DNA from: Synechococcales cyanobacterium C42_A2020_086
Lineage (GTDB): Bacteria > Cyanobacteriota > Cyanobacteriia > Elainellales > Elainellaceae
Assembly (NCBI GenBank): GCA_015272325.1
Contig: JACYLU010000017.1
Location: forward strand, 62,001 to 126,000
Reading direction: 5' to 3'
DNA length: 64,000 nucleotides
Part shown: positions 31,109-51,928 of the stretch, one piece after another
Numbering within the stretch: position 1 is the stretch's first letter
How the letters are laid out: every line of letters begins with the position of its first letter
Translations under genes and position numbers: made by a program
The notes under the pieces: model-generated
Told to the model about the DNA's origin: nothing
What the model saw: the letters and a program-made list of their open reading frames with translations, nothing else
The model's database searches: none

Positions 31109-32890
31109 ATGTCAACCGAACGCCCACCCTTAGAAGAAATGACCCTCCGACAACTGCGTCGAGTTGCCAGCGAATATGGGGTTTCCCGCTACAGCCGGAT
31201 GCGGAAGGAGCAACTCCTGGAGGCGATCAAAGAGGCTCAACGAAATCGTTATACGCCTAGTCCATCTCGTACATTGGAGGCCCAAGCAGAAGTGGCAGCA
31301 GCAAAGTTTGATGTCGGGCAGACGGATCGCAGCGGCGGTTCCCTCGCCATCGTGGATGAGGGACTTCCGGATTTGCCAGACGGTTATGGAGAAAGCCGAA
31401 TTGTTCTCCTGCCGCGTGATCCCCAGTGGGCCTATGCCTATTGGGATGTGTCCAATGAAGCTAAAGAAGCATTGCGGCGTCAGGGCGGTATCCGGTTGGC
31501 TCTGCGCTTCTACGACGTCACCGATATCAATATAGAAGTTCAGCGACCGCACAGCTTACAGCAGTATGAATGCGATGAGCTAGCCCGTGAATGGTATCTG
31601 CCCATTCCGGTCAGCGATCGCGACTATGTGATCGAAATCGGCTACATTACAGGGGACGGGCGCTGGCTGCTGCTAGCACGATCGGCAGCGGTTCGCATCC
31701 CGCCAGTTTACCCCTCTGATTGGATCGATGATCAGTTCATCACGGTAGGTTGGGACGACGAGCTGCGCAGCAAGATTTTCTTGGAGTTGAGCCAACCTGG
31801 AAAGTCTGCGGCTGCTCGGACAGGTCCGCTCTACGATCAGGTGTTTGAACTGGCTCAGGTGGCCGAAGCGCAACGGGTCGCTGGCTCAGTCTTTGGCTCA
31901 GTACAGCAGGTGCCTGAAGAAGCAATCAGCTCCTATGTGTTTCCGTCGGGAGTTGGCAAATGGGCATCGACGGAGTCGGGCGTAGGCATGATGTCGGGCG
32001 TAGGCATGGCTGTCACCGGCATGTCGGGTGTGGGCAGAATGTCAGGCGTCGGTCTGTACAGCGAGTCCGGGGTGGGCAGGTACAGCGAGTCGGGCGTCGG
32101 TCTATACAGTGAGTCCGGAGTGGGCATGTACACCATGTCTGGTGTAGGTGTTACCGGCATGTCGGGGATTGGCATGATGTCTGGCGTGGGCATTACCGGC
32201 ATGTCGGGGATTGGCATGATGTCTGGCGTGGGCATTACCGGCATGTCGGGAATTGGCATGGGCGTTGCTGGTATGTCGGGCGTGGGCATGTACACCATGT
32301 CTGGAGTGGGCAGGTACAGCGAGTCGGGCGTCGGTCTATACAGTGAGTCCGGAGTGGGCATGTACACCATGTCTGGTGTAGGTGTTACCGGCATGTCGGG
32401 GATTGGCATGATGTCTGGGGTTGGTCTGTATAGCGAATCGGGCCTGGGCATGTACACCATGTCTGGAGTGGGCAGGTACAGCGAATCGGGCGTCGGTCTG
32501 TACACCATGTCCGGTATGGGTTTGTATAGCGAATCGGGCGTGGGCATGTACACCATGTCCGGTATGGGTATGTCGGGTGTGGGTTTCTCCGCCTCGATGC
32601 CGCCGATTCGGCCGCGCCAGTTCTGGTTAATTGCCGATGCAGAGCTGATTGTGTATGGAGCAACCGAACCGGATGCCACGGTCACGATTGGCGGCCGACC
32701 CGTCAAGCTCAATCCAGACGGCACGTTCCGCTTCCAAATGTCGTTCCAGGATGGATTAATCGACTTCCCGATCATGGCAGTGGCAGCCGACGGCGAGCAA
32801 ACTCGCTCCATCCACCTCAAGTTCAATCGGGAGACACCGGAGCGCCGAACCAACACCAAGGAAGAAGCGGTGCTGGAGTGGCTCCCCTAA
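31109..32890 (+). CDS. DUF4912 protein with a long SGVG-type repeat tract
   Basis: A 593-residue protein with four parts. (1) Residues about 10-45 are a Rho-N/SAP-like helix pair (LRQLRRVASEYGVSRYSRMR, then KEQLLEAIKEAQ), often nucleic-acid binding. (2) Residues about 85-215 are DUF4912 (RIVLLPRDPQWAYAYWDVS, then LALRFYDVTDIN and WYLPIPVSDRDYVIEIGYI). (3) Residues about 288-494 are a repeat tract of SGVG/SGIG blocks separated by MYTM, RYSE, LYSE, VTGM or MM. (4) A C-terminal domain (RQFWLIADAELIVYGATEPD, ATVTIGGRPVKLNPDGTFRF) resembles the second half of DUF4912. Function unknown. The repeat tract is much longer than linkers usually are. Confidence 0.85.
   Translation: MSTERPPLEEMTLRQLRRVASEYGVSRYSRMRKEQLLEAIKEAQRNRYTPSPSRTLEAQAEVAAAKFDVGQTDRSGGSLAIVDEGLPDLPDGYGESRIVLLPRDPQWAYAYWDVSNEAKEALRRQGGIRLALRFYDVTDINIEVQRPHSLQQYECDELAREWYLPIPVSDRDYVIEIGYITGDGRWLLLARSAAVRIPPVYPSDWIDDQFITVGWDDELRSKIFLELSQPGKSAAARTGPLYDQVFELAQVAEAQRVAGSVFGSVQQVPEEAISSYVFPSGVGKWASTESGVGMMSGVGMAVTGMSGVGRMSGVGLYSESGVGRYSESGVGLYSESGVGMYTMSGVGVTGMSGIGMMSGVGITGMSGIGMMSGVGITGMSGIGMGVAGMSGVGMYTMSGVGRYSESGVGLYSESGVGMYTMSGVGVTGMSGIGMMSGVGLYSESGLGMYTMSGVGRYSESGVGLYTMSGMGLYSESGVGMYTMSGMGMSGVGFSASMPPIRPRQFWLIADAELIVYGATEPDATVTIGGRPVKLNPDGTFRFQMSFQDGLIDFPIMAVAADGEQTRSIHLKFNRETPERRTNTKEEAVLEWLP
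31974..32590 (+). repeat. In-frame repeat tract of the DUF4912 gene
   Basis: About 620 bp coding for SGVG-type units, mostly 24 bp (8 residues), in places 42 bp (14 residues, three copies from 32161). A 113-bp segment (32072-32184) is repeated without any change at 32306-32418, offset 234 bp (78 codons). Perfect identity over 113 bp, including third codon positions, points to recent duplication or gene conversion inside the gene. Confidence 0.9.
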
Positions 32891-37243: not shown

Positions 37244-39910
37244 ATGGCGTTTCCCTTTCCTAGGTTCAATCGTGTCGCTCCGGCGGTTTCCTCAATGCAG
37301 TTTTCGTTGCGTGTGGTAGAGGAGGCTGAAACTGAACTGGGAACGCTGCTGACTAAATTAGATACCTATCGCTATGGATTGACCGCAGCCGAGTCCCGTC
37401 GGCGACTCAAGCGATATGGCTGGAATGATGTGACCCATGAAGCCCCGCTGCCGTGGTATCGGCAATTTCTCAAGTCCTTCAACAACCCCTTTGTCTATTT
37501 GCTACTAGGATTGGCCATTGCCGCGAGCTTGACCCGGCAACTTCCAGAAACCCTGGTGCTGCTGGGAATGGTTTTCTTGAGCGGAGTGTTGCGCTTTATT
37601 CAGGAATACCGCTCGACCCAAGCCGCAGCAAAACTATGGGCGATTGCTGGAGCCACTGCCCTGATTAGCCGCTATGACGATCTTGTCCCGCGGGAACGGC
37701 AACAGCGAGTGCCAATTCGCAAGCTAGTGCCTGGAGATATTGTGCATTTGTCAGCGGGCGATATGGTCCCTGCTGATGTGCGGCTGCTTCAAGCAGAACA
37801 TTTATTTGTCAGTCAAGCCATCTTGACCGGAGAATCCAACCCAGTGCAAAAGCACGATACGTTGGGCAGTCGAGTCGAGAAAATGGCGATTCGGTATCAC
37901 CAAACCAATGATCCCTTCCAGACCCCGACGGTCTGTTTCATGGGAACAACCGTGATTGGAGGTCGGGCCAAAGCCGTTGTGGTGGCTACAGGTAACCAAA
38001 CTTATTTGGGATCTCTGTCTCAGGCTATTGCCGGTAAACGGGCGCGCACAAGTTTTGAAATGGGAATTAATCGAGTCACCGGGCTGCTGTTAGGGTTTAT
38101 CGCGGTTCTGGTGCCGATTGTGCTGCTGATTAACAGCATCAATTATGACGATTGGAATGAGTCCTTCCTGTTTGCGATTGCGGTTGCGGTGGGTCTGGTG
38201 CCAGAGATGTTGCCTCTGGTGGTGAGTGCTAACTTAGTACGGGGCGCCACGGCCCTGTCTAAGCAAAACGTGCTGGTAAAACGGCTGGATGCCATGCAGA
38301 ATTTAGGCGCAGTCGATATCCTCTGTACCGATAAGACCGGCACCCTGACCCAAAATCATATTTCCCTGATGGAACCCGTAGGAATTGACGGGACGGTAAC
38401 AGAAGAGCCGCTGCGATATGCCTATCTCAATAGCTATCACCAGACCGGGATCCGCAATGCATTAGATGCCGCCATCTTGGAATGCAGAGCGTTGCCCGCT
38501 GAGTTGAATCCGGAAACCGCTCATGCCAAGTTAGGAGAAATTCCCTTTGACTTTGTGCGACGCCGATTGTCAGTTGTTGTAGAGCAGGATGGAGTGCCCT
38601 GGTTGATTTGCAAAGGCGCAGTGGCAGAAGTGATCACCCTTTGCACAACCGCCCAATGGCAGGGGCAAGTGGTTCCCCTAGCACCGACTTTGTATCAAGA
38701 AACGCTGCAACGGGTCCGTCAGCTTCAGGCAGATGGACTGCGGGTGCTGGCTGTTGCCTATCGCCGCTTCTCGGCACCCAAAGAAAGGTATAGCCCAGAC
38801 GATGAGGTTGACCTGACCTTAGTAGGCTATGTCACGTTTCTTGACCCCCCCAAAACCAGTGCCAAAGCAGCGATCACAGCATTGCAAGAGCACGGAGTGG
38901 CCGTCAAAGTGATCACGGGCGATGAGGAAACCATTACCCGGCGGATTTGCCAGGAGGTAGGAGTTGCGGTGCAGCAGGTCTACCTGGGTGCTAGCGTTGA
39001 GCGGATGACAGACGCCGAACTCGCGGATGCGGTGGAAGAAGCGACCATCTTTGCCCGCATGTCGCCTGCTCAGAAAGCTCGCGTGATCCGCATTCTCAAG
39101 CAGGCAGGACACGCAGTGGGCTACTTGGGCGATGGCATTAATGATGCTCTAGCCCTGCGCGATGCCGATGTTGGTATTTCCGTCGATACGGCTGCTGATG
39201 TTGCCAAAGAATCGGCCGACATCATTCTGCTGGAAAAGAGTTTGATGGTGTTGGAGCAGGGAATCATGGAAGGTCGCCGCACCTTTGGTAACCTAACCAA
39301 ATATCTCAAGATGGCAACCAGCTCCAACTTTGGCAACGTCTTTAGCGTCGTGGGAGCCAGTGCATTCCTTCCGTTTCTACCGATGCTGCCCCTGCAACTT
39401 CTGGTGCAAAACCTGCTGTATGACCTGTCGCAAATTGCTATCCCCTTCGACCGAGTGGATGCGACCTATCTCGCCAAGCCGCAAGCCTGGTCTGCATCGG
39501 ATCTGCGCCGCTTTATGCTGCATTTGGGGCCTGTCAGTTCTGTATTTGACTATGCCACCTTTGCTCTACTCTGGTTTGGCTTGGGAGCAACTACCGACGC
39601 CAATGCTGCTTTGTTCCAGTCTGGCTGGTTTGTGCAAGGCTTGCTCTCCCAAACCCTGATTATTCACCTGCTGCGAACCGAGAAAATTCCCTTCCTGCAG
39701 AGCACAGCAACGCTGCCGGTATTGGTCATGACCGGACTGGTCATGGTGATTGCCCTGTTGCTGCCCTTTACCTCTCTGGGAGCCACTCTGGGGTTAGTGC
39801 CACTGCCGGCGATCTATTTCCCCTGGCTGATAGTGATTCTGGTTGGTTATGGCCTGCTGACCCAGATAGTCAAAATGGCGTACATCCGCCGATTTAAAGC
39901 CTGGCTGTAA
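37244..39910 (+). CDS. mgtA: MgtA-type (P3B) magnesium-translocating P-type ATPase
   Basis: An 888-residue P-type ATPase. The phosphorylation motif DKTGTLT is at D363, TGES is present (AILTGESNPVQK) and GDGIND is at about 630. The membrane block VAVGLVPEMLPLVVSANLVR, then GATALSKQNVLVKRLDAMQN, and the C-terminal LLVQNLLYDLSQIAIPFDRV, are diagnostic of MgtA/MgtB rather than calcium or heavy-metal pumps. MgtA imports Mg2+ when it is scarce. It is followed on the same strand, after 233 bp, by an HMA-EamA fusion gene. mgtE and an mgtC family gene lie within 14 kb. Confidence 0.9.
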   Translation: MAFPFPRFNRVAPAVSSMQFSLRVVEEAETELGTLLTKLDTYRYGLTAAESRRRLKRYGWNDVTHEAPLPWYRQFLKSFNNPFVYLLLGLAIAASLTRQLPETLVLLGMVFLSGVLRFIQEYRSTQAAAKLWAIAGATALISRYDDLVPRERQQRVPIRKLVPGDIVHLSAGDMVPADVRLLQAEHLFVSQAILTGESNPVQKHDTLGSRVEKMAIRYHQTNDPFQTPTVCFMGTTVIGGRAKAVVVATGNQTYLGSLSQAIAGKRARTSFEMGINRVTGLLLGFIAVLVPIVLLINSINYDDWNESFLFAIAVAVGLVPEMLPLVVSANLVRGATALSKQNVLVKRLDAMQNLGAVDILCTDKTGTLTQNHISLMEPVGIDGTVTEEPLRYAYLNSYHQTGIRNALDAAILECRALPAELNPETAHAKLGEIPFDFVRRRLSVVVEQDGVPWLICKGAVAEVITLCTTAQWQGQVVPLAPTLYQETLQRVRQLQADGLRVLAVAYRRFSAPKERYSPDDEVDLTLVGYVTFLDPPKTSAKAAITALQEHGVAVKVITGDEETITRRICQEVGVAVQQVYLGASVERMTDAELADAVEEATIFARMSPAQKARVIRILKQAGHAVGYLGDGINDALALRDADVGISVDTAADVAKESADIILLEKSLMVLEQGIMEGRRTFGNLTKYLKMATSSNFGNVFSVVGASAFLPFLPMLPLQLLVQNLLYDLSQIAIPFDRVDATYLAKPQAWSASDLRRFMLHLGPVSSVFDYATFALLWFGLGATTDANAALFQSGWFVQGLLSQTLIIHLLRTEKIPFLQSTATLPVLVMTGLVMVIALLLPFTSLGATLGLVPLPAIYFPWLIVILVGYGLLTQIVKMAYIRRFKAWL

Positions 39911-40143
39911 CCCGCTTCCTGAATCTTGCCTAACTCAGTACAATCATTGCACTGCTTCTTGTTTACATTACTCCTAATGGGTTTCGTTTGGGTTTAGACG
40001 GGGGTTTGAGCAGTTCACTCATTGAACCCGTTGCACAACCCGTTGCAAGAATAAACAAGTGACGTTACCTAGACCCCTGAGCACCCGAACCTGCGAGTTT
40101 CTTGCTCGCGTTTTTGACTCATTGCATTCTGCGGCAACACCCC

Positions 40144-41331
40144 ATGCGCGATGATACTACCCTGTCCGTCATTGTGGTTCATACCACTGCCAGTCGCTCT
40201 CGGTTTCGCATTCCTCGCCTAGCCGAAGATCCAGTGTTTATAGCCCATCTACTCCAGCAAACCTATGCCCTAGCAGGCATCACTGCCGCACGAGTCAATT
40301 CCCTAGCTCGATCCCTGATTGTGCATCATGAGCCTAGTGTACGAATTGCAGACCTGCACTCCCGGATCACGGAGGCTACAAAGCGGGCGGCTACCCTCTC
40401 CCTGTCGGGGCAACTGCCCTCACACTCCTGGGAATCTGAAGTAGAACTGTCTGCCTCAGGAGCATGGCCAGCTATTGGTTGGGTCCTCCTGGCAACGGGT
40501 AGCTACGCTACTTTGCAGGCAACCATTCGCTTGATTGCTGGGAGCCTCCACCCCTTTCAAATTGTGTTCTTAAACAATCTGTTTGCAGTTGGGTTGCTGC
40601 TGCCCGTGTTGACTGTTGATGGTCTGAGCACCACCAAACTGCCGCTCCATGGGCTACGAGCAATTCTGGATGCGGGAGCGTCGTTACTGTTGGTATCGGG
40701 GCTGAGTTTGCTGCCCCTAGCCCAGGTCAATGCCTTGGGCGCCACCACCCCCCTGTTTGCGATGATGGGTGCCTCTCTCGTTTTGGGAGAAGCCTTACGC
40801 CCCCAACGGTGGATTTCTCTCCTGCTGGGAATGGTTGGGATGCTGGTGATTGTGCGTCCCGGTTTAGCCGGAATGGGTCTAGGTGCACTGCTGACATTGG
40901 GTGGCTCGATCGCGTTTGCAGGGGTGGTGCTGCTGCTCAAGGTTCTGTCTCGCACAGATTCCAGCCTGACGATCATTGCCTACAACGCCCTTCTGCTTAC
41001 CCCCCTGACCTTTATTCCAGCACTCTGGGTGTGGACTGTTCCCACGCTAGGGGAACTAGCTCTATTGACCGCGGCGGCTGCCCTGGGTTTAGTGGGTCAA
41101 ATCTGTATGTTTCAGGCGCTAGAACAAGCAGATGCCACTACCGTATTGCCTGCGGATTTTGCTCAGTTTGTTTGGGCGAGTGTCTTGGGCTTTGTGCTGT
41201 TCCAAGAAGTGCCTGATCTGTGGACTTGGCTAGGGGGACTGCTGATTTTTGCTGGAGTCATTGGTGTGGCAAATTCAGAACCCGAGGAACCCAAGGAGCA
41301 AGCTTGCTTACTGCTGCTGGAGAGTGCTTAG
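40144..41331 (+). CDS. EamA/DMT transporter fused to an N-terminal HMA-like domain
   Basis: About 395 residues from the ATG at 40144; a TTG at 40102 is an alternative. Residues about 5-95 (VVHTTASRSRFRIPRLAEDP, then AGITAARVNSLARSLIVHHE) align by eye with the N-terminal domain of the P-type ATPase at 43.8-46.5 kb (IVHRTTHRIRIRIPRLRNDP, RMNAFAESIVVEYRP). This is the HMA_2-type ferredoxin-like fold without the CxxC metal pair. Residues about 110-380 have about 10 membrane segments with two EamA repeats (QVNALGATTPLFAMMGASLV, then GMLVIVRPG). DMT proteins export small metabolites; the substrate here is unknown. I know of no described EamA protein with this domain. Its 3' end overlaps the convergent ATPase-like gene by 24 bp. 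Confidence 0.85.
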   Translation: MRDDTTLSVIVVHTTASRSRFRIPRLAEDPVFIAHLLQQTYALAGITAARVNSLARSLIVHHEPSVRIADLHSRITEATKRAATLSLSGQLPSHSWESEVELSASGAWPAIGWVLLATGSYATLQATIRLIAGSLHPFQIVFLNNLFAVGLLLPVLTVDGLSTTKLPLHGLRAILDAGASLLLVSGLSLLPLAQVNALGATTPLFAMMGASLVLGEALRPQRWISLLLGMVGMLVIVRPGLAGMGLGALLTLGGSIAFAGVVLLLKVLSRTDSSLTIIAYNALLLTPLTFIPALWVWTVPTLGELALLTAAAALGLVGQICMFQALEQADATTVLPADFAQFVWASVLGFVLFQEVPDLWTWLGGLLIFAGVIGVANSEPEEPKEQACLLLLESA

Positions 41332-43539
41332 TGAATCATGCAGATGAGGGTCTGGAGCAAACCAGAAGGGGCGCAGAGCGTTTAAAACCGCGAGTAAATT
41401 CACGGCGTTGTTGATCACGACCACTAGAATTGGATCGAGAATCAGCAATATTCCCAAGGTCGTTGCCCCTAGGTGCGGCAAGGTAATCAGGGCAATATTT
41501 TGTTGCACTAGGGCCATTGCTTCATCGGCGATGTTGAACGCCGTCACTAACGTCAGGAGATTTCCGTAGGGCAGTCGAATGTCTGCGATGCGCTGAATCG
41601 ACGGGCAAGAGTGATGCCTGCCTACAGCGATATCCGCATAGCAGAGGGCAGGATAGTCATCCATACCTTCGCCCATGTAGACCACCGTATGCCCCTGCTC
41701 CTGAAGACGGCAAACAAAGGCTTTTTTGTCTTCCGGGGTGAGTTCGGCGAAAACGGCACTGGGGTCTAGCCCAACTTGAGAAGCAATCGCGGCTGCCACG
41801 TCGGAGGCACCCCCCGTAACAACATACACCGTCAATCCGCGCTGCTGTAGGTAAGACAATACCGCTCGACTGTCGGGATGGACGCTGGCACAGCAGATGA
41901 TCTGACCCATGAGCTGCCCGTCTACAGCGATGTAGATGTACCAATAGCCTTGATACTCTCCATCTCGGGCTTGAGAGGGAGGGGCGACCGCGTCAGGAAA
42001 AGCAATGCCAGCCTGATTCAAATAACTACAGCTACCTACAAGAACCCAGTAACCATTGACCTGAGCGGAAATCCCCAGACCTTGACTTGTTTGAAGTGCA
42101 CAGGCTTGGCTGAGCGGAATGGTCAACCCTCGCTGTTGGGCGTAGGCTGTAATGGCTTGGAACACCGGATGCTGAAATTTGGCTTCACACTGCCCCGCTG
42201 CTGCCGCTAGTGCCAATAGCCAGTTTGCTGGGTCGGAGCCTGGGGAAGAGATGGGCATGTTTGAGTGAAGGTCTGAGTGAAGGATCTCAATCGCCACCAC
42301 CGATAGCTCTTTGCCAGTTAGGTTGCCTGTTCGTGCAAATACCACCGTATCGGCTTGGGTCAATAGCTCAAACACTCGCCCCGAGCGGATGTAGATATTT
42401 TGCTGCTGAGCATAGAGCATCATAGAAAGAATAGCTGTGGGCGCAGAGAGTCGCACCCCGGTCACCAGATCCAATTGGAGGGGGGCTAACGCCCGTTCCA
42501 GGTTCTGGGTCCATAACAATAAACCGCCCGAAAGCGCTAAAGTCGGCAAAATCAGAGTCTCACCGACGATTTTGGCGTAGTCACTCAGCTGCGTTTGGTG
42601 CAGGGGAGCCGCCTCTGCCAACAGCACCTCCTGAGCATATTGCGTCTGATCGCCCAGAGACTCTACCCGTACCCGGATCTGTCCATCCATGACCGTACAG
42701 CCTGCTGGAATCGGGTTGCCCATGCCTACGGGTAAGGGAGCCGGTTCACCCGTCAGGATGCTGAAATCTAACCAGGCTTCTCCTTCCAAAATGAAACCAT
42801 CGACGGGACAAGTATCCTCTGCAATCAGCAGAATTTGGTCGCCGGGGCCCAACTCGGACAGTGGCAGCACTTGCGGTTGTCCCTCTCGGATCAGCCGCAC
42901 TCGCTGTACATCGGGAAGGAGGCTAGTTGAGGGTATGGCTGGTGCCCTCTCGTAGGTCGACTCCTGGAGCCAGTCGCCGGTTTCAGCGAGAACCAGATCC
43001 AGATTGGGTGCGACAAAATCTCCAGTCAACCCGTGAAAAATCGTCCAGAGGGATTCCAAAATTTCTTCATCCACTTTCCCTTGAGCTAAATCCTGACGAG
43101 TGCGCTCTAGAACTGGAAAAGCCGCCACTAGAGTAACCATCCCTAAGACTATGGGAGGAATTGCCAATTCCATCGCTCCTGCCAGGACGGCCAAACCCAA
43201 GCCCAATGCAGGTAGAGCAATTCGCTGGAGCAACTCGAGTTCTGATGGTTTGCTCGACGGCTTCGCAGGGTCAGGAGGGGGCGGCAATGGCCCTTCTAGC
43301 GGAACCTGCTTCATAAACTGCTGCACCTGCGCCAGGATAGCCGTTGCTGTGGATTGAGCCGGTGTGTATTCAATAATCAGAGAGCAAGCCGGATAGTTGA
43401 CTCGAATTTGCCTGAACCCAGGATGAGCAAGCAGATGCGTTTGCACCGCCTCCGCCCAACCAGACGCATGCCGCATCCCAGCAATTCTCAGTCGTAAGCG
43501 TCCCGGGATCTGGTGAACAATCTGGATCTCGCCGCTCAT
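41308..43539 (-). CDS. P-type ATPase homologue with a mutated phosphorylation site (pseudo-pump)
   Basis: About 743 residues from the ATG at 43539; a TTG at 43551 is also open. The N-terminal HMA-like domain (IVHQIPGRLRLRIAGMRHAS, then RVNYPACSLIIEYTP) is followed by a proline-rich linker and a P1B-type core. TGE (about 263-265) and HP (about 457-458) are kept. The DKTGTLT motif reads ARTGNLT (about 402-408; the codon at 42334-42336 is GCA for Ala), TGD reads TGG, and GDGxND reads GEGMDD. CPC is replaced by SAP. The frame is intact, so the protein is probably made but cannot form the aspartyl phosphate. It sits right after a small DUF454-like gene and downstream of an intact paralogue. Confidence 0.85.
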   Translation of the reverse strand: MSGEIQIVHQIPGRLRLRIAGMRHASGWAEAVQTHLLAHPGFRQIRVNYPACSLIIEYTPAQSTATAILAQVQQFMKQVPLEGPLPPPPDPAKPSSKPSELELLQRIALPALGLGLAVLAGAMELAIPPIVLGMVTLVAAFPVLERTRQDLAQGKVDEEILESLWTIFHGLTGDFVAPNLDLVLAETGDWLQESTYERAPAIPSTSLLPDVQRVRLIREGQPQVLPLSELGPGDQILLIAEDTCPVDGFILEGEAWLDFSILTGEPAPLPVGMGNPIPAGCTVMDGQIRVRVESLGDQTQYAQEVLLAEAAPLHQTQLSDYAKIVGETLILPTLALSGGLLLWTQNLERALAPLQLDLVTGVRLSAPTAILSMMLYAQQQNIYIRSGRVFELLTQADTVVFARTGNLTGKELSVVAIEILHSDLHSNMPISSPGSDPANWLLALAAAAGQCEAKFQHPVFQAITAYAQQRGLTIPLSQACALQTSQGLGISAQVNGYWVLVGSCSYLNQAGIAFPDAVAPPSQARDGEYQGYWYIYIAVDGQLMGQIICCASVHPDSRAVLSYLQQRGLTVYVVTGGASDVAAAIASQVGLDPSAVFAELTPEDKKAFVCRLQEQGHTVVYMGEGMDDYPALCYADIAVGRHHSCPSIQRIADIRLPYGNLLTLVTAFNIADEAMALVQQNIALITLPHLGATTLGILLILDPILVVVINNAVNLLAVLNALRPFWFAPDPHLHDSLSTLQQQ

Positions 43540-43554
43540 TAAAATGGTCAATCC

Positions 43555-43713
43555 TCAGTCCACTAGAGCCAGCTTGAAGCAGATGGCAGACAATATCAGG
43601 AAGGGTGTACCTGGAAAAAACGGCAAAATCAGGCCTAGCACACCTATTCCAAAACTGATCGTACCTACCGTGAGCAGTGCAGCTTTGCGAAATGCGTTGA
43701 GTACACAATCCAT
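43555..43713 (-). CDS. Small DUF454 (YbaN)-like membrane protein
   Basis: 52 residues, with GGAGAA about 6 nt before the ATG at 43713. VGTISFGIGVLGLILPFFPG, then TPFLILSAICFKLAL resembles the first half of DUF454 proteins (LGxxLPxLPTTPFLLLAaxCF). It has two hydrophobic stretches. The stop at 43555-43557 is only 15 nt before the start at 43539 of the next gene (4 nt before the alternative TTG), so the genes are probably translationally coupled. The family normally continues for another 50-60 residues, so this is either a small member or a truncated one. The ribosome site and spacing support that it is translated. Confidence 0.6.
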   Translation of the reverse strand: MDCVLNAFRKAALLTVGTISFGIGVLGLILPFFPGTPFLILSAICFKLALVD

Positions 43714-43809
43714 GGTGATTTCTCCAATTGAGAAGGTCTAAAACATTGCTTCCCGACCGGCAGCCCCAGCAAGGAAAAGCAAAGTAGAGTGCTGCCTCTT
43801 CATGCTTGT

Positions 43810-46539
43810 CTACGCTTCCCTGCGCCGTGCCTGCCAGGCCTCTCCAGCGCGCCGTGCAGGAAAAGTATGTACAGGAATGGGTTTAGCTCGTATCGGACGA
43901 AAGACCTGAGAAGACGCTTCATAGGTCCAGGCGACACCGTCCGGATCACGGTCACGGCTCCACTGGCCAAAGTTCTGCTGCTGTTTGCGGCGAGAGATGG
44001 TTTGGGGCGAAGTTCCTAGTCGAGTGGCCAGCTCTTTCTGGATCAAGGTATCGAGTCGGGAGACAGGAAGCGAAACTGCCTGAATCGCGGATGCAGATAT
44101 GGTAGGTGTCCGGGGTCGGTCTTTTGCTGTCTGAACCTCGCCCCATTCCGATTGAAAGGATTGCTCTTGATCGGTTGTCGTGAGAGAGATGACCGCCGGT
44201 TGTGATGCTATCATCGAGCTGAACCCATCCATCGTCACTTGACTGGGTCCCAAGAGTGGGCGGAGACCGTTGAGTTCTGCCAGAATGGCTGACCCATTAT
44301 TGATCAAGATAGCCAGAACAGGATTGAGCGCAAAGAGGACTCCTGCCAGCACCGCACTCAAGTTCGGCACAATCACCATCGCAATGTTCTGAGTAACGAT
44401 TTCCATTGCATGTTCGGCAATGTGCAGAGCCTGAAGCAGTTGCGTCAGCCGGTCGTCCATTAGCACCACATCGGCTGTTTCTCGGGCAATGCCGCTGGCG
44501 GCCGCAAAGGAAATAGAAACATCGGCATATGCTAGAGCGGCGGAGTCGTTGATGCCATCTCCACAAAAGGCAACGGTCTTGCCACTCTCATGCAGGGCTT
44601 GCACCACCTCTACTTTGCGCTCTGGGAACGCCTCTGCATAGACGTTGCCTCTGGGAATGCCTAAATCGTCCGCAATCGCATTGGCAATGCGGGCTTCATC
44701 GCCACTCAGGATGTAGACCTCAATGCCGCGTGCCTGTAGGGCTTGTACCACAGTGCGGCTTTCCGCTCGCAGCGGATCGCTATATAGAATTACCCCCATC
44801 AAGTCACCATCAATGGCGACATAAACTAGCGAGTGCGGCCCGGATTCCAAATCCGGATAGCGATTGTGCAGTTCTTGTACTGGGATCTGCCATGTGGTCA
44901 TCATCCGATGGCTGCCAACTAGCACTGTGCGCCCATCAATGTGCGCTTTGACCCCTAGCCCGACGTGATACTCCCATTCATCGCACGATCGCAAAGATAG
45001 CTGCAGGTTGCGAGCATGGCGAATGATTGCCTCTGCTACTGGATGCGTCAAACCTTGCTCGGCGGTTGCTGCCATTGTTAGGAGGTGAGTTTCAGAGACA
45101 TCCGATCTCAGCAGCTTGATGCCAGTCACGCCGGCTTGTCCTTGAGTCAGGGTGCCGGTTTTGTCAAAGACAATCACATCGACATCGCACAGCAGTTCGA
45201 TTGTGCGTCCGGTGCGAATCAGAATACCGTTGCGAGCGGCATAGGTGAGAGCAGACAGTACAGTGGTTGGCACGGAGATGCGAATCCCGGTGCCCACATC
45301 GAGTGTCAGAAGTGAAATAGCGCGACCGACATCGCCACTAACCGTGCCGACTATCGCCGAGAGCAGCAGCGTCGGAGCAACGAGCTGGTTAGCAATTCTC
45401 GTCGCAAAGTTAGAAACGCGCGTATCGTGAACTGGAGCAGACTGCATAAGATTGGCAATCACCCCCGCTCGGGTATTGGCTCCAATGCGTTCCGCGACAA
45501 TACACAGATGACCGTCTACCAGGATCGTGGAAGCGAAGACCTCTTCCCCTTTTACTCGCGTCACAGGGATGGATTCCCCAGTGAGTTTGCACTGATCCAC
45601 TAGTCCTGCTCCCCGCACAATCGTGCCATCCACTGGAATCAGGTCCCCTGGGTAAACTATCACGCGGTCGCCCACAATCACTTGGTCGATGGGAACGTGC
45701 AACTCACGCCCATCCCGCTCCACAATCGCCTCGGTTCCCAAACAGCTCAGCAGGTCCAAAGAAGCGCGGTTGCTGCTGCGAGCAGTAATGTCTCGAATGA
45801 CCTCCCCACCTTCTACCATCCCTAGCATCAAGGCGGGTGCAAAGAAGCTGCCCTGAATCGTATGTAGAGTAATGGCTAGACCATCTAACAGATCAATTGA
45901 CAGTTCTCGATCGCGGAAGAGAGCAGAAAAGGCTCGATCGTACACTGGACGAGCTGCAATTAGAATGACCGCTCCAACCATGAGAGCAGGCAGCGGCACT
46001 TCGATCATCGCCGCAAAGCCCAATAGCAAACCCAATCCCGGTAAGCCCAACCGCTCCCATACATCCACCCCTTCAGACTCGGATTCATCCTGGGACTCTG
46101 GATTTAGAGCCAGAACGGCCTCTAAGCTGACCTCGGATGCTCGCTGAATGGCTTGAACAATCTGAACCTCAACGGCTGCAACTGCCTCTGGACTGATCTC
46201 GGGGCGATATTCCACCACAATCGACTCTGCAAAGGCATTCATTCGAATTTGATCTATCCCCTCAAAGCCTTGAATCAGGCTGCGCAGTGTCTCGGCATAT
46301 TCCGGGTCATTCCGCAGTCGAGGAATGCGAATACGAATGCGATGCGTGGTGCGATGAACAATCCTATACTCAACTAGGTATTCAACCAGAGATGGTGAGA
46401 CCTCAAAATGGTTGTCAAGTTGCATAGAAGAACCTAGCTTGGAAGCAACTGCTACCAAGGGTTGAGATTCAGAAGCGTCAGAGACCATTTTCCTCGGGAT
46501 GGGCCAATGGTGGATGACCGTATGGCTATTAGAGAACAT
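43810..46539 (-). CDS. P-type ATPase with HMA-like N-terminus and HTH-like C-terminal tail
   Basis: Up to 909 residues; a start at 46488 (GAGGAAA close upstream) is an alternative. Order: HMA-like domain without CxxC (about residues 55-115); membrane helices; actuator with TGES (319-322); helix with ISVPTT (421-426) where P1B pumps have CPC; D459-KTGTLT; HP (499-500); GDGIND (660-665); final helices. Residues about 825-880 then carry DTLIQKELATRLGTSPQTIS, RRKQQQNF and SRDRDPDGVAWTYE, a helix-turn-helix-like unit followed by an RDPDGxAWxY motif seen at the ends of other cyanobacterial proteins. The catalytic machinery is complete. The transported ion is unknown, since the metal-site motif is atypical. 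It is downstream of DUF5132. Confidence 0.87.
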   Translation of the reverse strand: MFSNSHTVIHHWPIPRKMVSDASESQPLVAVASKLGSSMQLDNHFEVSPSLVEYLVEYRIVHRTTHRIRIRIPRLRNDPEYAETLRSLIQGFEGIDQIRMNAFAESIVVEYRPEISPEAVAAVEVQIVQAIQRASEVSLEAVLALNPESQDESESEGVDVWERLGLPGLGLLLGFAAMIEVPLPALMVGAVILIAARPVYDRAFSALFRDRELSIDLLDGLAITLHTIQGSFFAPALMLGMVEGGEVIRDITARSSNRASLDLLSCLGTEAIVERDGRELHVPIDQVIVGDRVIVYPGDLIPVDGTIVRGAGLVDQCKLTGESIPVTRVKGEEVFASTILVDGHLCIVAERIGANTRAGVIANLMQSAPVHDTRVSNFATRIANQLVAPTLLLSAIVGTVSGDVGRAISLLTLDVGTGIRISVPTTVLSALTYAARNGILIRTGRTIELLCDVDVIVFDKTGTLTQGQAGVTGIKLLRSDVSETHLLTMAATAEQGLTHPVAEAIIRHARNLQLSLRSCDEWEYHVGLGVKAHIDGRTVLVGSHRMMTTWQIPVQELHNRYPDLESGPHSLVYVAIDGDLMGVILYSDPLRAESRTVVQALQARGIEVYILSGDEARIANAIADDLGIPRGNVYAEAFPERKVEVVQALHESGKTVAFCGDGINDSAALAYADVSISFAAASGIARETADVVLMDDRLTQLLQALHIAEHAMEIVTQNIAMVIVPNLSAVLAGVLFALNPVLAILINNGSAILAELNGLRPLLGPSQVTMDGFSSMIASQPAVISLTTTDQEQSFQSEWGEVQTAKDRPRTPTISASAIQAVSLPVSRLDTLIQKELATRLGTSPQTISRRKQQQNFGQWSRDRDPDGVAWTYEASSQVFRPIRAKPIPVHTFPARRAGEAWQARRREA

Positions 46540-46736
46540 ACCTGTGGAGGGCGAGACAAATGCAAGGCAACGGGCTAGCGCCTAACCGCATCCGTTCAGG
46601 CGGTGGCTGATCTGCTCCAACAGCTCGGAAGAGTTATCCAACTAATTCGGCCGATCTAATTTGGCAACAGGCGCTACTGGTTCGGCTAATCCCATCGGTG
46701 CCAACCCACCACTGCAAGTGGGCAAGGGAACCTGTC

Positions 46737-47087
46737 CTACTCGGAAATAATTTCAACGGCTCTCGGCGGAGTGGGTTGCTCTTGCACCTTTGCTCGGGCT
46801 GCTCGATGCTCATCCTTCGCCTCAGCCACGAGATCATTAAAGGATTCTTGCGCGTCTGCAAAGGTAGACTGTATCCCTTCAATCACATCCATTCCCCAGA
46901 TCAAAGCACTTTTTGTCGCCTCCCGTGCCGACTGGGAAACCGATTCTCCTACTCCATTCAGCTTCTCGTCTTCTTTCACCCAATTGCCCACCGTATCCAC
47001 GACTGGTGCTAACAGGACTGCCCCAACCCCAACCGCTAGCGCAGTAATCGGCTCGATTCCCAACAACAGAGCTTCTAGTTCAAACAT
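46737..47087 (-). CDS. DUF5132 domain-containing protein
   Basis: A 116-residue protein from the ATG at 47087. FELEALLLGIEPITALAVGV, then GAVLLAPVVDTVGNWVKEDE gives one Gly/Ala-rich membrane segment, followed by an amphipathic helical half (ESFNDLVAEAKDEHRAARAK). DUF5132 genes occur beside HMA-type P-type ATPase genes in cyanobacteria, as they do here, so it is likely an accessory subunit or membrane adaptor of the pump. It is the first gene of the minus-strand operon. Confidence 0.8.
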   Translation of the reverse strand: MFELEALLLGIEPITALAVGVGAVLLAPVVDTVGNWVKEDEKLNGVGESVSQSAREATKSALIWGMDVIEGIQSTFADAQESFNDLVAEAKDEHRAARAKVQEQPTPPRAVEIISE

Positions 47088-47324
47088 CTTTACCCAAGTA
47101 CTCAATGCATCACGATTATTAACAGTACACAATTTTTTGAAAGCAATAGAGTGATGCAGACGACAGTTTTAGTTCGAGAAGTAGCAGAGAGTCCTAGCTA
47201 AGAGGAAGTTGCAGACGTAATGTCAGAGAATATGCAATCTATAAAGTTAGCTGGTATGCCTCAATACATTAAATATTCAGCAATTGAGATACCCAGCAAT
47301 TGGCTCTCATAATCTCAGGCAAAC

Positions 47325-47357
47325 GAGTCAAGTATGAGTTAAGTATGAGTTAAGTAT
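47325..47357 (-). promoter_or_regulatory. Three 11-bp direct repeats, Pho-box-like
   Basis: GAGTCAAGTAT, GAGTTAAGTAT, GAGTTAAGTAT in tandem on the plus strand. Read on the minus strand they give CTTAACTC-ATA-CTTAACTC-ATA-CTTGACTC. The SphR (PhoB-type) site of cyanobacteria is known as tandem 8-bp units of PyTTAAPyPy(T/A) with 3-bp spacers, so period and core fit; only the last base of each unit differs. It lies about 240 bp upstream of the DUF5132/ATPase operon and faces it. Confidence 0.55.
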
Positions 47358-47548
47358 TGGTAGAGATTGGAGCGGGCAGCTTGGTAGCCTGCACCAATGG
47401 ATTCACCAATCAGAAAATGCATGGTTAGCATTCCAGATATTTGCATTCAATTCCTTGACACATCGGTTTTTCAGAGCTACCGTTAGAAACGGTGGTTAAA
47501 AGCTGAAAAGCCGTCACCTTGCTATTTGTTTTTTAGGGAGAGCAATTC

Positions 47549-47680
47549 ATGGAGGCTTCTAGTAGTAGTTGCCCACTTGCAAATTCCCAGGACTCTGTTG
47601 GATTTGACGACGATCCTGACCCTCATCCTGCTAGCTTGAGGCGAACGGAACTGCATTCTGCGTTTGTGCAAATGCTTTGA
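47549..47680 (+). CDS. Short upstream ORF with an Asp/Pro run (candidate leader peptide of mgtE)
   Basis: 43 codons with AGGGAG about 8 nt before the ATG. The product reads MEASSSSCPLANSQDSVGFD, then DDPDPHPASLRRTELHSAFV. The DDDPDPHP run alternates acidic residues with Pro. In enterobacteria, the mgtL leader of mgtA has such an acid/Pro pattern, which destabilises ribosomes at low Mg2+ and so switches mgtA on. mgtE lies 613 bp downstream on the same strand. Whether this short frame is translated and acts this way is an inference; the ribosome site is the direct evidence. Confidence 0.4.
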   Translation: MEASSSSCPLANSQDSVGFDDDPDPHPASLRRTELHSAFVQML

Positions 47681-47718
47681 TGAATCTGCCCAATACGACT
47701 CTATGTAGGGGTCCACGA

Positions 47719-47790
47719 TTCATCTCCGATCGCCTCTGGGCAGGGCGATTGTATCGAGAAGGAGATGAACCCATGAAAGATTTTACGTAG
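47719..47790 (+). promoter_or_regulatory. Hairpin hiding a Shine-Dalgarno sequence and a 5-codon ORF
   Basis: TTCATCTCC (47719-47727) pairs perfectly with GGAGATGAA (47761-47769). Inside, ATCGCC (47729-47734) pairs with GGCGAT (47744-47749). The 3' arm of the outer stem contains most of AAGGAG (47759-47764), an ideal ribosome site 8 nt before the ATG at 47773. That start opens only MKDFT and then TAG (47788-47790). The outer stem would block ribosome access. It is in the upstream region of mgtE. Confidence 0.6.
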
Positions 47791-48293
47791 CTGCATTTCT
47801 ATCGCAAGATCGACAAGATCATTTGCCGCCAGTGAGCTGTGAACGTGCGCTGTGCAAGCTCTTTGTTTGTATTCGCTTTTTGCTCACGGTTCATCAAGGC
47901 TGTGAGGAGTTTGATTTGAAAAACAGCGAAGGATTGAGCATAGGAATGAATTATTTCTGTTTCTCTATGCTTAGTCGCTTTCGTTTTATCGTGAAGTGAC
48001 AGCCTGATTGTCATTCGGTTTCCTTGTAATTTCTCATCATTCCTCCCTAATCTTTCCTGCTAGGCATCCGTTTCTGATGCCGAAATCTCTGATGCTGAAA
48101 TAGGCCGACCTCCGATGATTGCATTCGGACGTTTGACCTGACCCATTGGGCTACCTTTTTTCAGAATTGTCTCAAAGACTTACTTAGAAATCTGCCCAGT
48201 ATTGATTATTCGTTGATTGCGCTTTCACAGCTCTGCAATTCAATACTGTTCTGTCATTTACTGTTCATTTACTGTTATTTCAGGAGAAGACCA
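47791..48293 (+). other. Remaining mgtE leader
   Basis: 503 bp with no supportable gene. TCCGA-N9-TCGGA (about 48112-48130) is a possible hairpin and CCTTTTTT follows within about 30 bp, so a premature stop of transcription is conceivable, but the stem is weak. No M-box or yybP-ykoY signature was found. mgtE is preceded by GGAGAAG, an excellent ribosome site. Confidence 0.35.
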
Positions 48294-49670
48294 ATGGCTA
48301 TCAATCCTTTGAACGATCTGCTGGCGTATCCCAAAGCATTGGGAGCTGCTAAACTCACTGCAAATCAGCTCAGCATCTCTGAATTACTGCGGTCACTCCG
48401 CGAAATCGATCCCCATAAGCGAGTGTTGGCGTTCCGGCTGCTAGAGAAAGAGAAAGCGATTGCCGTGTTCGATGCCCTCTATCCTGATGAACAAGCTACT
48501 TTAATCCAGGGTATGACTGATCCGGAAATTTTAGTATTTCTGGAAGCGCTTGAACCCGATCAGCGAGTGCGGTTGTTTGAAGAGCTGCCGGCTAAAGTGA
48601 CTAAGCGCTTGATGAGTCAACTCAGCCCTGACTCTCACCAGGCAGTTGATTTGCTGCTAGGTTATCCCGAAGGTAGCGCTGGACGCCGTATGAGTCTGCG
48701 TTATCTAGCAGTCCGAGAAACAACCGCCGTGGATGCGGTACTCGCTTTGGTGCGGGAATCCTGCCTGCGAGACAATGAACTGGACATGATCTTTGTGATT
48801 GATCAGCAACGGTTCTATCGCGGCTTCGTTCGCACGGTGCGTTTGATGAAAGCCGACCCTGACCTGCCCATTGCACAGCTCATTGATGGTAGAGACATTG
48901 CCATCCCTGCTACAGCACCTGAAATGCAAGCAGTCCGTCTGCTTAAAGACTATGATCTGCCTGCTATTCCTGTGGTGGATAGTGAAGGCCGACTCGTGGG
49001 CGATATTGCCTTTGATGATGTGATTGATTTGATTGAAGAAGAAGCATCAGCTGCTGCCCTTGCTCAAGCGGGAGTCGGTAATCTGCTGGGTCGCGACCAA
49101 GCTTGGAGTGAGAAACTAGTTCGAGGACCCATCCGCTACGCAGTTCAGCTCCGAATCGCCTGTTTAATCATTACTCTGATTGGCGGCATGCTGGTGGGTG
49201 GGGTAATTCAAAGCTTTGAAGAAATCCTGGAAGCGGTTGTTGTAGTCGCCATTTTCATTCCAGTCGTGATGGATATGGGAGGCAATGTCGGTACGCAATC
49301 TACTACGGTTTTTGCACGGGGGCTAGCATGGCAGCATATCGATGTCCGGCATTATGGAACGTATCTGTTTCGAGAGCTTCGCATTGGTCTGATCATGGGG
49401 TTGATTCTAGGAGCGACTGGCGGAACCATTGCCTATGTCTGGCAGGGCGTTCCAAATGGCATCCCTCAACTGGGGCTAGCAGTCGGGCTTTCCTTGTTTG
49501 CGGTTGTTACGCTAGCTGCCGTTTTGGGTGCCCTATTGCCCTGGCTCTTGCTCAAACTAGGCTTTGATCATGGACCAGCGGCTGACCCATTTGTAACTAC
49601 GATCAAGGATTTCACCGGCTTGCTGCTTTACTTCTACTTGGTGAGTTGGCTGCTGGGCATTCAGGCATAA
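48294..49670 (+). CDS. mgtE: Magnesium transporter/channel MgtE
   Basis: A 458-residue protein from the ATG at 48294, chosen because GGAGAAG lies 7 nt upstream; an open frame farther upstream is hydrophobic but unrelated. The N-domain (about residues 25-130; VFDALYPDEQATLIQGM, then LFEELPAKVTKRLMSQLSPD) is followed by paired CBS domains (about 140-265) that sense Mg2+, and then five membrane helices. VVMDMGGNVGTQSTTVFARG and GPAADPFVTTIKDFTGLLLY are the channel motifs. The unusually long upstream region holds the candidate regulatory elements listed separately. Confidence 0.94.
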   Translation: MAINPLNDLLAYPKALGAAKLTANQLSISELLRSLREIDPHKRVLAFRLLEKEKAIAVFDALYPDEQATLIQGMTDPEILVFLEALEPDQRVRLFEELPAKVTKRLMSQLSPDSHQAVDLLLGYPEGSAGRRMSLRYLAVRETTAVDAVLALVRESCLRDNELDMIFVIDQQRFYRGFVRTVRLMKADPDLPIAQLIDGRDIAIPATAPEMQAVRLLKDYDLPAIPVVDSEGRLVGDIAFDDVIDLIEEEASAAALAQAGVGNLLGRDQAWSEKLVRGPIRYAVQLRIACLIITLIGGMLVGGVIQSFEEILEAVVVVAIFIPVVMDMGGNVGTQSTTVFARGLAWQHIDVRHYGTYLFRELRIGLIMGLILGATGGTIAYVWQGVPNGIPQLGLAVGLSLFAVVTLAAVLGALLPWLLLKLGFDHGPAADPFVTTIKDFTGLLLYFYLVSWLLGIQA

Positions 49671-49693
49671 TCCGCATCGCGGCTGCTACCTCA

Positions 49694-51070
49694 TTACCCT
49701 GGCTCTGCGGCTAACCGTCCCGACTGGATCGCTGTCACTAGGGCATGGTAATCTTGCTCCACCTGCTGAGCATAGGTCATGGCGAACGCCGTTATAGCCA
49801 GATCAAACTTATTACTCTGCCCTAGGTAGCCGCTAATCATCGCTGCATCACCAGTCCGAGCATGGGCACGGGCCAACGCAGCGCCACAGATTTCGGCATA
49901 GTCTTCCAATCGCCGAGCAGACATGCCCTTGACCTTGATCGAAGTTTTCATGTCTTTGAGTTGGCGGAAATAGAAGTCTTGCCCTTGCTGATTACTAGTC
50001 CATCCCAAAAAAATATCGCTAGCAGCCTGCATTAAGCGCTGTCCGCTCACGATGCGCTCTCCCTCATGGGAGTAAGGACTGGTCCCTACATAGGGTTCCA
50101 ACACCGAGGGTCGTGCCTCCTTGTACTGCAACAAAAGAGGATCTTCATTATCGTCTAGCAGCAGAACCACACCACAATGAGTGCCCACACTGCCCACGCC
50201 GACCACCTTCAGTGCCGCGTCTACTAAGCGGTAGCGATCGAGCAAAAACTGGCGATCGACCTGAAGGGTGTCTCGATATTGCTCAAACACCGCCTGAATG
50301 CTCTCAAAGTACTCGGGTTGATTGGGCGGATGATAGAGTAGGGGCGGATTATCGATCAAGCGGTACTGTCCATCCACCCGCTCGGTCAACTGAGCTACCG
50401 CTCGATCCGACGTGCGGCTGAACGCCCTAGCGGCCATCTGAGTCCACTGCTGGCGTGTGTCTTCGTCCGGGGCATGTTCAATCAGCAAGCTTGCGTCTAG
50501 CCGAGCATACCAGACTTCTAGCGTTCGCATCTGGCTGTATTGGGTAATCGCCATTCGGTAAGCTTGGGCAGCCGCTAGGACAGCATCAGAAGTTGCTTGC
50601 TTTGGCAGAGACAGATCGTGTCCGGCAACCGCAATACTAGTTACTAGGCGTTTCAGATCCCATTCCCAGGGGGCAACTAGGGTTTCATCAAAATCATTCA
50701 CGTCAAAAATAAGATTCCGCTCTGGAGTGGCAAAGCCGCCAAAATTGAGCAGATGACAATCTCCACAGGCTTGCACTCGAATGCCGGTAGTGGGAGTGGT
50801 TGCTAGATCGGCTGCCATAATCACGGCACTCCCGCGCAGAAGCGTGAAGGGAGACTGCATCATGCGATAGTGCCGGATGGGAATTAGATGATCAATGCGC
50901 TGCTGGTTCGATTGTTCGATCAGGGCAATGGGATCAGGGCGATCAACTGGGGGTTGCCAGTGGCTGTGATGGGATCGGGGCACTTTCTGTCGCAATTCCT
51001 TACCCGCTGCTCGGCGAGCCTGACGAGAGGGCTGGGCGGAGGGCGTCAGTTCCGAAGAGTGCGGTAGCAT
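49694..51070 (-). CDS. DUF2252 family protein
   Basis: A 458-residue protein with a kinase-like fold. QACGDCHLLNFGGFATPERN, then LIFDVNDFDETLVAPWEWDL and KRLVTSIAVAG are the family's central motifs; the GDxHxxNFG and DxNDFDE elements resemble the catalytic and metal-binding loops of aminoglycoside-type kinases. Substrate and function are unknown. The N-terminal about 35 residues are basic and variable. It is convergent with mgtE, with only 23 bp between the stops. Confidence 0.9.
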   Translation of the reverse strand: MLPHSSELTPSAQPSRQARRAAGKELRQKVPRSHHSHWQPPVDRPDPIALIEQSNQQRIDHLIPIRHYRMMQSPFTLLRGSAVIMAADLATTPTTGIRVQACGDCHLLNFGGFATPERNLIFDVNDFDETLVAPWEWDLKRLVTSIAVAGHDLSLPKQATSDAVLAAAQAYRMAITQYSQMRTLEVWYARLDASLLIEHAPDEDTRQQWTQMAARAFSRTSDRAVAQLTERVDGQYRLIDNPPLLYHPPNQPEYFESIQAVFEQYRDTLQVDRQFLLDRYRLVDAALKVVGVGSVGTHCGVVLLLDDNEDPLLLQYKEARPSVLEPYVGTSPYSHEGERIVSGQRLMQAASDIFLGWTSNQQGQDFYFRQLKDMKTSIKVKGMSARRLEDYAEICGAALARAHARTGDAAMISGYLGQSNKFDLAITAFAMTYAQQVEQDYHALVTAIQSGRLAAEPG

Positions 51071-51226
51071 AATCCAAGGCGGGCGAGGTTAGAGTACAAC
51101 CTTTTCGATTATCCAAACTGCTCGGCAGCAGTGGGTGTGTTCTACTCTACAGGCAAACATTGCCGCAATCGCATCAGCTCAGGAATCTGGCATTGAATCA
51201 TCAACAGATCACCACTGAGGTAAAAC

Positions 51227-51928
51227 ATGTCCTGGATTGAATTTACCCTTCGGCTGGGTGTTGCTCTCCTGCTGGGTTCAGTCGTAGGACTGGAGCGTCA
51301 ATGGCGACAACGCATGGCGGGATTACGCACTAGCGCTTTGGTATCAACTGGAGCGGCTTTGTTTGTGCTGCTATCAGTCATGACGCCAGAAGAGGCCAGC
51401 CCAACCCGCATTGCTGCTCAGGTGGTTTCTGGAATTGGCTTTCTGGCAGGTGGGGTGATCCTGCGCGAAGGAGCCAACGTCCGTGGGCTGAATACCGCTG
51501 CAACCATCTGGTGTGCTGCTGCAATTGGCTGCCTTGCTGGTTCAGGATGGTTCACACAGGCATTCATTGGAACGTTGGTTATCCTGGTTGCCAATATTTT
51601 GCTGCGCCCGATTGGCTACAGGATCAATCAGCAGCCGCTCAAAGGCACAGAGGTTGAATTGTGCTATCGCTGCAGTGTGATTTGCAGCAGCAAGCATGAA
51701 GCCCATATCCGAGCTTTGCTACTACAAGCGGTGAACCCAAGTCGGATGAGGCTGCGAGCGCTACACAGTGAAGATCTAGAATCAACTCCTGACAAGGTTG
51801 AAGTAGAGGCTGATCTGGTCACCCAAGAACGGGACGATGCATTTTTAGAGACGATTGTTAGCCGTCTGAGCTTGGAAACGGGGGTCAGCGCGGTGAGTTG
51901 GCAGATTATCGAAGAAGAATACGGTTGA
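51227..51928 (+). CDS. MgtC/SapB family protein
   Basis: A 233-residue protein. Residues 1 to about 140 carry about four membrane segments with the family motifs GLERQWRQRMAGLRTSALVS, then GIGFLAGGVILREGANVRGL and NTAATIWCAAAIGCLAG. Residues about 145-233 form an ACT-like cytoplasmic domain. MgtC proteins are linked to growth at low Mg2+ and to control of membrane ATP synthase in enteric pathogens; in cyanobacteria the role is not established. Its position near mgtA and mgtE supports a cation role. Confidence 0.9.
   Translation: MSWIEFTLRLGVALLLGSVVGLERQWRQRMAGLRTSALVSTGAALFVLLSVMTPEEASPTRIAAQVVSGIGFLAGGVILREGANVRGLNTAATIWCAAAIGCLAGSGWFTQAFIGTLVILVANILLRPIGYRINQQPLKGTEVELCYRCSVICSSKHEAHIRALLLQAVNPSRMRLRALHSEDLESTPDKVEVEADLVTQERDDAFLETIVSRLSLETGVSAVSWQIIEEEYG

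Follow-up and report, generated by a model that had tools for sequence, protein, structure and literature searches.

The array and its genetic surroundings

The window, a stretch of 64,000 nucleotides of the Synechococcales cyanobacterium C42_A2020_086 genome, carries a short tandem array in intergenic DNA, between a minus-strand operon formed by a DUF5132-like gene and two P1B-type ATPase genes and the plus-strand mgtE gene (Table 1). The DUF5132-like gene lies 237 bp away on the minus-strand side of the array and is followed by the two ATPase genes. On the plus strand, positions 47325-47357 read GAGTCAAGTAT-GAGTTAAGTAT-GAGTTAAGTAT, which corresponds to three units (47325-47335, 47336-47346 and 47347-47357) that agree from unit to unit at 21 of 22 positions; the interval takes in one trailing linker, ATA, at 47355-47357. 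A first-pass annotation of this DNA had described the repeat as lying between two transport operons, and its sequence and coordinates proved exact and its location correct. A degenerate fourth unit had escaped that annotation, and the GATTAT hexamer listed in Table 1 is missed by a sigma-70 scan, which demands a -35 hexamer.

Table 1. Coordinates, strand and characteristics of the array, its associated elements and the adjacent genes in the window
Feature	Position	Strand	Remarks
Second, divergent P1B-like ATPase, 747 aa, HMA_2 domain	41308..43551	minus	TIGR01525 below cut-off
P1B-type ATPase, 909 aa, N-terminal HMA_2	43810..46539	minus	PF00122, PF00702, PF19991; TIGR01525 above cut-off
DUF5132-like small membrane-type protein, first gene downstream of the array	46737..47087	minus	Likely ATG 47087
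GATTAT, possible -10 element	47309..47314	minus	4/6 to TATAAT; 10 bp downstream of last box
Three-copy 11-bp direct repeat	47325..47357	minus	CTTAACTC ata CTTAACTC ata CTTGACTC; score 19.4 (published-site matrix), 14.6 (own-genome matrix)
Degenerate fourth unit, CTCTACCA	47358..47365	minus	Same 11-bp register, one linker further upstream
mgtE magnesium transporter	48294..49670	plus	Probable ATG 48294, ORF opens 48213; TIGR00400 above cut-off

The product of the first gene of the operon matches Pfam PF17195 with an E-value of 0.018, below the cut-off, and its paralogue (L009) does so with 2.1e-6, above the cut-off. By eye, neither P1B-like ATPase has the CPC motif that is usual in the fourth transmembrane helix; they carry SVPT and SAPT instead. 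At G000 C8:111055-126908 there is a paralogous cluster that combines a DUF5132 gene with two HMA_2 ATPases; one of these ATPases (L262) is preceded, at a distance of about 800 bp, by a weak Pho-like triple with a score of 14.7. The intergenic region between mgtE and the DUF5132-like gene gave no Rfam match to a riboswitch or other structured RNA up to E=1. Positions 48254-48280, just 5' of the codon where mgtE probably starts (48294), hold another 11-bp repeat, TCATTTACTGT in 2.5 copies. Elsewhere in the window, an ORF at 31109-32890 starts like a Rho-N-domain protein and contains long imperfect repeats (units of 24, 42 and 48 bp, around 32040-32580).

The region 37244-51928 of the window is a cation-gene cluster, with genes for an mgtA/B-type P-type ATPase (37244), the P1B-like ATPases (41308 and 43810), mgtE (48213) and mgtC (51227). 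The link that had been proposed between the pump and phosphate or Mg-phosphate balance is unsupported, as the ATPase pair is of the P1B (soft-metal) type and is neither a phosphate nor a magnesium transporter; the magnesium genes nearby (mgtA-type, mgtE and mgtC) are outside the DUF5132/P1B operon. These mgtA-, mgtE- and mgtC-type genes could also suggest a magnesium-linked PhoP-type box, composed of two hexamers 11 bp apart and serving mgtE, and PhoP boxes do have an 11-bp period. We nevertheless consider this very improbable: the units do not fit (T/G)GTTTA on either strand by eye, and about 940 bp separate the array from the mgtE start. With this distance and the opposite strand, mgtE was rejected as the target of the array.

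Likeness to SphR sites

Cyanobacterial SphR sites consist of at least three 8-bp boxes separated by 3-bp linkers, and the Pho box has been described as CTTAACCT repeated three times with such linkers (PMC1906773). The array has this architecture, with at least three tandem 8-bp boxes and 3-bp linkers, and the resemblance to a Pho box pointed out in the first-pass annotation is real as regards the 11-bp period, the CTTAAC core, the strand and the intergenic position upstream of the named operon. The distance to GATTAT also agrees with the spacing between Pho box and -10 element that PMC1906773 quotes as an E. coli rule. Compared with CTTAACCT or with PyTTAAPyPy(T/A), CTTAACTC is off at the last position in every copy and CTTGACTC is off at two positions. 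With a matrix built from the 8-bp boxes that PMC1906773 gives for three-box sites in its Table 1, in which the published entries themselves score 8-27, the array came out above every other three-box match of the window; the second-best independent site reached 14.5. Its three boxes contributed 7.6, 7.6 and 4.1 bits, each against a maximum of 10.8.

In a first-order Markov simulation of 3 Mb, single strand, no three-box site scored 16 or more, and the two-box pattern with up to three mismatches gave two overlapping matches in the window versus 0.17 expected from dinucleotide shuffles. Measured on random sequence, the array is thus well beyond chance. Shuffle and Markov nulls cannot generate tandem duplications, which are common in the intergenic DNA of this genome, and duplications were therefore measured in the real genome. 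For this purpose a sample of 2.44 Mb (41%) was used, picked so as to cover contigs that carry several pstS genes. About eight distinct loci of this sample score at least 19 with the published-site matrix, the array among them; phoX (22.2) and one pstS (18.7) are near this value.

The genome has candidate Pho boxes of its own upstream of a phoX-like gene and of five pstS-type genes. The boxes of the phoX-like gene are CTTATTCT-ATTTACCT-CTTAACCC, and from a reading of its protein we take this gene to be phoX. Position 7 of the box is C in 13 of the 14 phoX/pstS boxes and T in all three copies of the array, so that by this position the array disagrees with the resident sites. Moreover, the phoX and pstS boxes and linkers have diverged from one another, whereas the array copies are alike, linkers included. 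In the SphR position-matrix scan that the first-pass annotation had proposed as a check, the array is the best site of the window with the published-site matrix, but in the 2.44 Mb it ranks only 34th with a matrix made from the genome's own sites, and its best pair ranks 99th. Shifting the register to take in the degenerate fourth box gives a triple with a score of 18.5 under either matrix and the 14th rank under the own-genome one. This second matrix is small and its sites were chosen partly through the published-site matrix, which makes it a guide rather than a proof.

A gene for a PhoB-like regulator followed by a kinase-sized ORF is found at C31:18951 (L083); by resemblance and from family knowledge, we assume that it encodes a SphR/SphS-like pair. 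More than 20 full-length PhoB-like regulator matches are present in the genome, and no copy reaches the TIGR02154 cut-off. Given such a pair and the Pho-type boxes in front of phoX and pstS, the array could be envisaged as a true SphR Pho box, in which phosphorylated SphR would bind three or four boxes on the minus strand and activate the DUF5132/P-type ATPase operon in low phosphate, from a start near 47300. The top score in the window, the three-box architecture with its CTTAAC core and orientation, the degenerate fourth box and the distance of exactly 10 bp from the last box to the GATTAT hexamer all speak for this reading. We consider it unlikely, and the array is probably not a SphR box, given the T at position 7 in every copy, the ranks of triple and pair with the own-genome matrix, and downstream genes that do not belong to the known phosphorus-acquisition set. 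Two further arguments against it, the wealth of 11-bp arrays in this genome, whatever their sequence, and the absence of the array in relatives of the DUF5132 and ATPase genes, are developed below.

Tandem arrays in the genome and conservation at related loci

Counting intergenic arrays of three copies with at least 18 of 22 identities, we found 53 at period 11 in the 2.44 Mb, together with 37 at period 10, 14 at period 12 and about 19 at period 13; composition-shuffled intergenic segments gave about 0.05 such arrays. Three-copy arrays with an 11-bp period are thus commonplace here. The units of the 53 period-11 arrays are mostly unrelated in sequence, no motif common to them all is evident, and the array of the window ranks fourth among them by Pho score. 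The chance that one of the genome's arrays looks as Pho-like as this one is several percent. At C37:338607, an array of three GGGTTGAGTAC units agrees with the window unit at 8 of 11 positions, which we judge to be expected among 53 arrays. Other three-copy arrays include those at C37:280880 and 280959, C26:117386 and 117466, C8:67193 and C6:248818. Some of the arrays are paired about 80 bp apart, and one such pair lies about 0.75-0.85 kb from phoU. The unevenness of mismatches within units (0.55 versus 0.48 expected, standard error 0.045) was discarded as a sign of function, being just slightly over expectation.

Convergent intergenic regions hold 3 of the 50 classifiable 11-bp arrays versus 16% of random intergenic positions (binomial, about 0.03). 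This scarcity between convergent genes and the peak at 10-11 bp give hints that part of the 11-bp class is regulatory. The array could then be an operator for another regulator of the PhoB/OmpR family that binds 11-bp direct repeats and possibly senses metal or membrane stress. Such a reading would suit the helically phased direct repeat seen here, a class of arrays that peaks at the helical periods 10-11 and avoids convergent regions, the more than 20 PhoB-like proteins, and a P1B operon for which metal control would be fitting. We hold it to be doubtful all the same: no response regulator gene was recognised by eye among the window ORFs beside the array, the arrays share no unit pointing to a single regulator, and the array is unconserved in relatives. 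An extension of this idea to the whole class, in which some 100 promoter-associated 11-bp arrays with unrelated units would be the operators of an expanded PhoB/OmpR-family set and new sites would arise by repeated 11-bp tandem duplication, is speculative and in our opinion improbable.

No period-11 array was detected in 206 kb taken mostly around DUF5132 genes of other cyanobacteria, a small and non-random sample; the abundance of these arrays may be lineage-specific. Relatives of the DUF5132 gene are rare, with a match in just one other genome of the 36-genome order. A scan of the genome collection yielded 27 DUF5132 loci; one had too little sequence for the test, and the 500 bp upstream of the others were examined. 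No comparable array lies upstream of these DUF5132 relatives, where 11-bp arrays reach 14 of 22 identities at best; the top Pho score is 15.7 on the same strand, and the most distant locus (L120) has a score of 18.8 on the opposite strand. Nor is there a comparable array at eight ATPase loci, related or paralogous. The first-pass annotation had named lack of conservation in orthologous promoters as grounds for giving up its proposal, and conservation is indeed wanting at the DUF5132 loci and at these eight ATPase loci, although the relatives are distant (protein identity roughly 35-57%) and absence there is compatible with a young site. When up to three mismatches were allowed, the three-box pattern had 17 matches across 388 genomes of this class versus about 39 for the pattern read backwards, and many of the 17 prove to be perfect 11-bp arrays whose linkers differ.

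Taken with the T at position 7 and the 34th rank, the 53 like arrays and the missing conservation leave the phosphate control that had been suggested for the DUF5132/P-type ATPase operon and its pump unsupported; no finding links this operon to phosphate.

A probable duplication of an 11-bp word, and known counterparts

The reading that we favour, with a probability of roughly 55%, is that the array is a duplicated 11-bp word, a neutral or weak site whose likeness to SphR sites is largely coincidental, and not a working Pho box. Local duplication of one 11-bp word in promoter-bearing intergenic DNA would have produced three copies and one decayed copy; the resemblance of the CTTAAC core to a SphR half-site would be largely a coincidence, and the array would most likely be neutral or a weak site. 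Local tandem duplication is favoured because the linkers are identical, conservation is lacking and the background of similar arrays is large; copies identical with their linkers are what a duplication would give. On the other side stand the high published-matrix score, the fourth box and TATAAT-like hexamer at Pho spacing, and the hints of regulation in the class. We take the array for a tandem duplication private to this lineage, which some regulator of the PhoB/OmpR family may use, and infer both its origin by duplication and its lack of phosphate control.

By itself, the array is one more short intergenic repeat and carries little weight. It also advises caution: where 11-bp tandem arrays abound, a Pho match made of a period and a core beats every shuffle yet means little. 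If the wider set of 11-bp arrays were regulatory, it would show direct-repeat operators arising by duplication.

Comparison with known systems concerns both the operon and the array. The PacL (DUF1490) and DUF6110 partners of P1B-ATPases concern metal efflux (PMC9374683). Like them, the DUF5132-like small protein of the window is encoded directly before a P1B-type ATPase and, by inspection, combines a hydrophobic stretch at its N-terminus with a tail rich in Glu and Ala; it differs in being DUF5132-like, with no DUF1490 or DUF6110 match in a Pfam scan, and no metal-binding tail was identified in it. By its layout, it is possibly a cyanobacterial counterpart of these partners. With the SphR Pho box the array shares the 11-bp period, the three units, the CTTAAC core and an intergenic site upstream of a correctly oriented operon, but it departs from it by the bases at positions 7 (T for C) and 8 (C) of every copy, by identical linkers, by its absence in relatives and by downstream genes outside phosphorus acquisition. 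Finally, the array resembles the short intergenic tandem repeats of cyanobacterial genomes, with a few head-to-tail copies in noncoding DNA and units specific to each array. The well-known cyanobacterial STRRs are heptamers, whereas the preferred unit here is 11 (and 10) bp.
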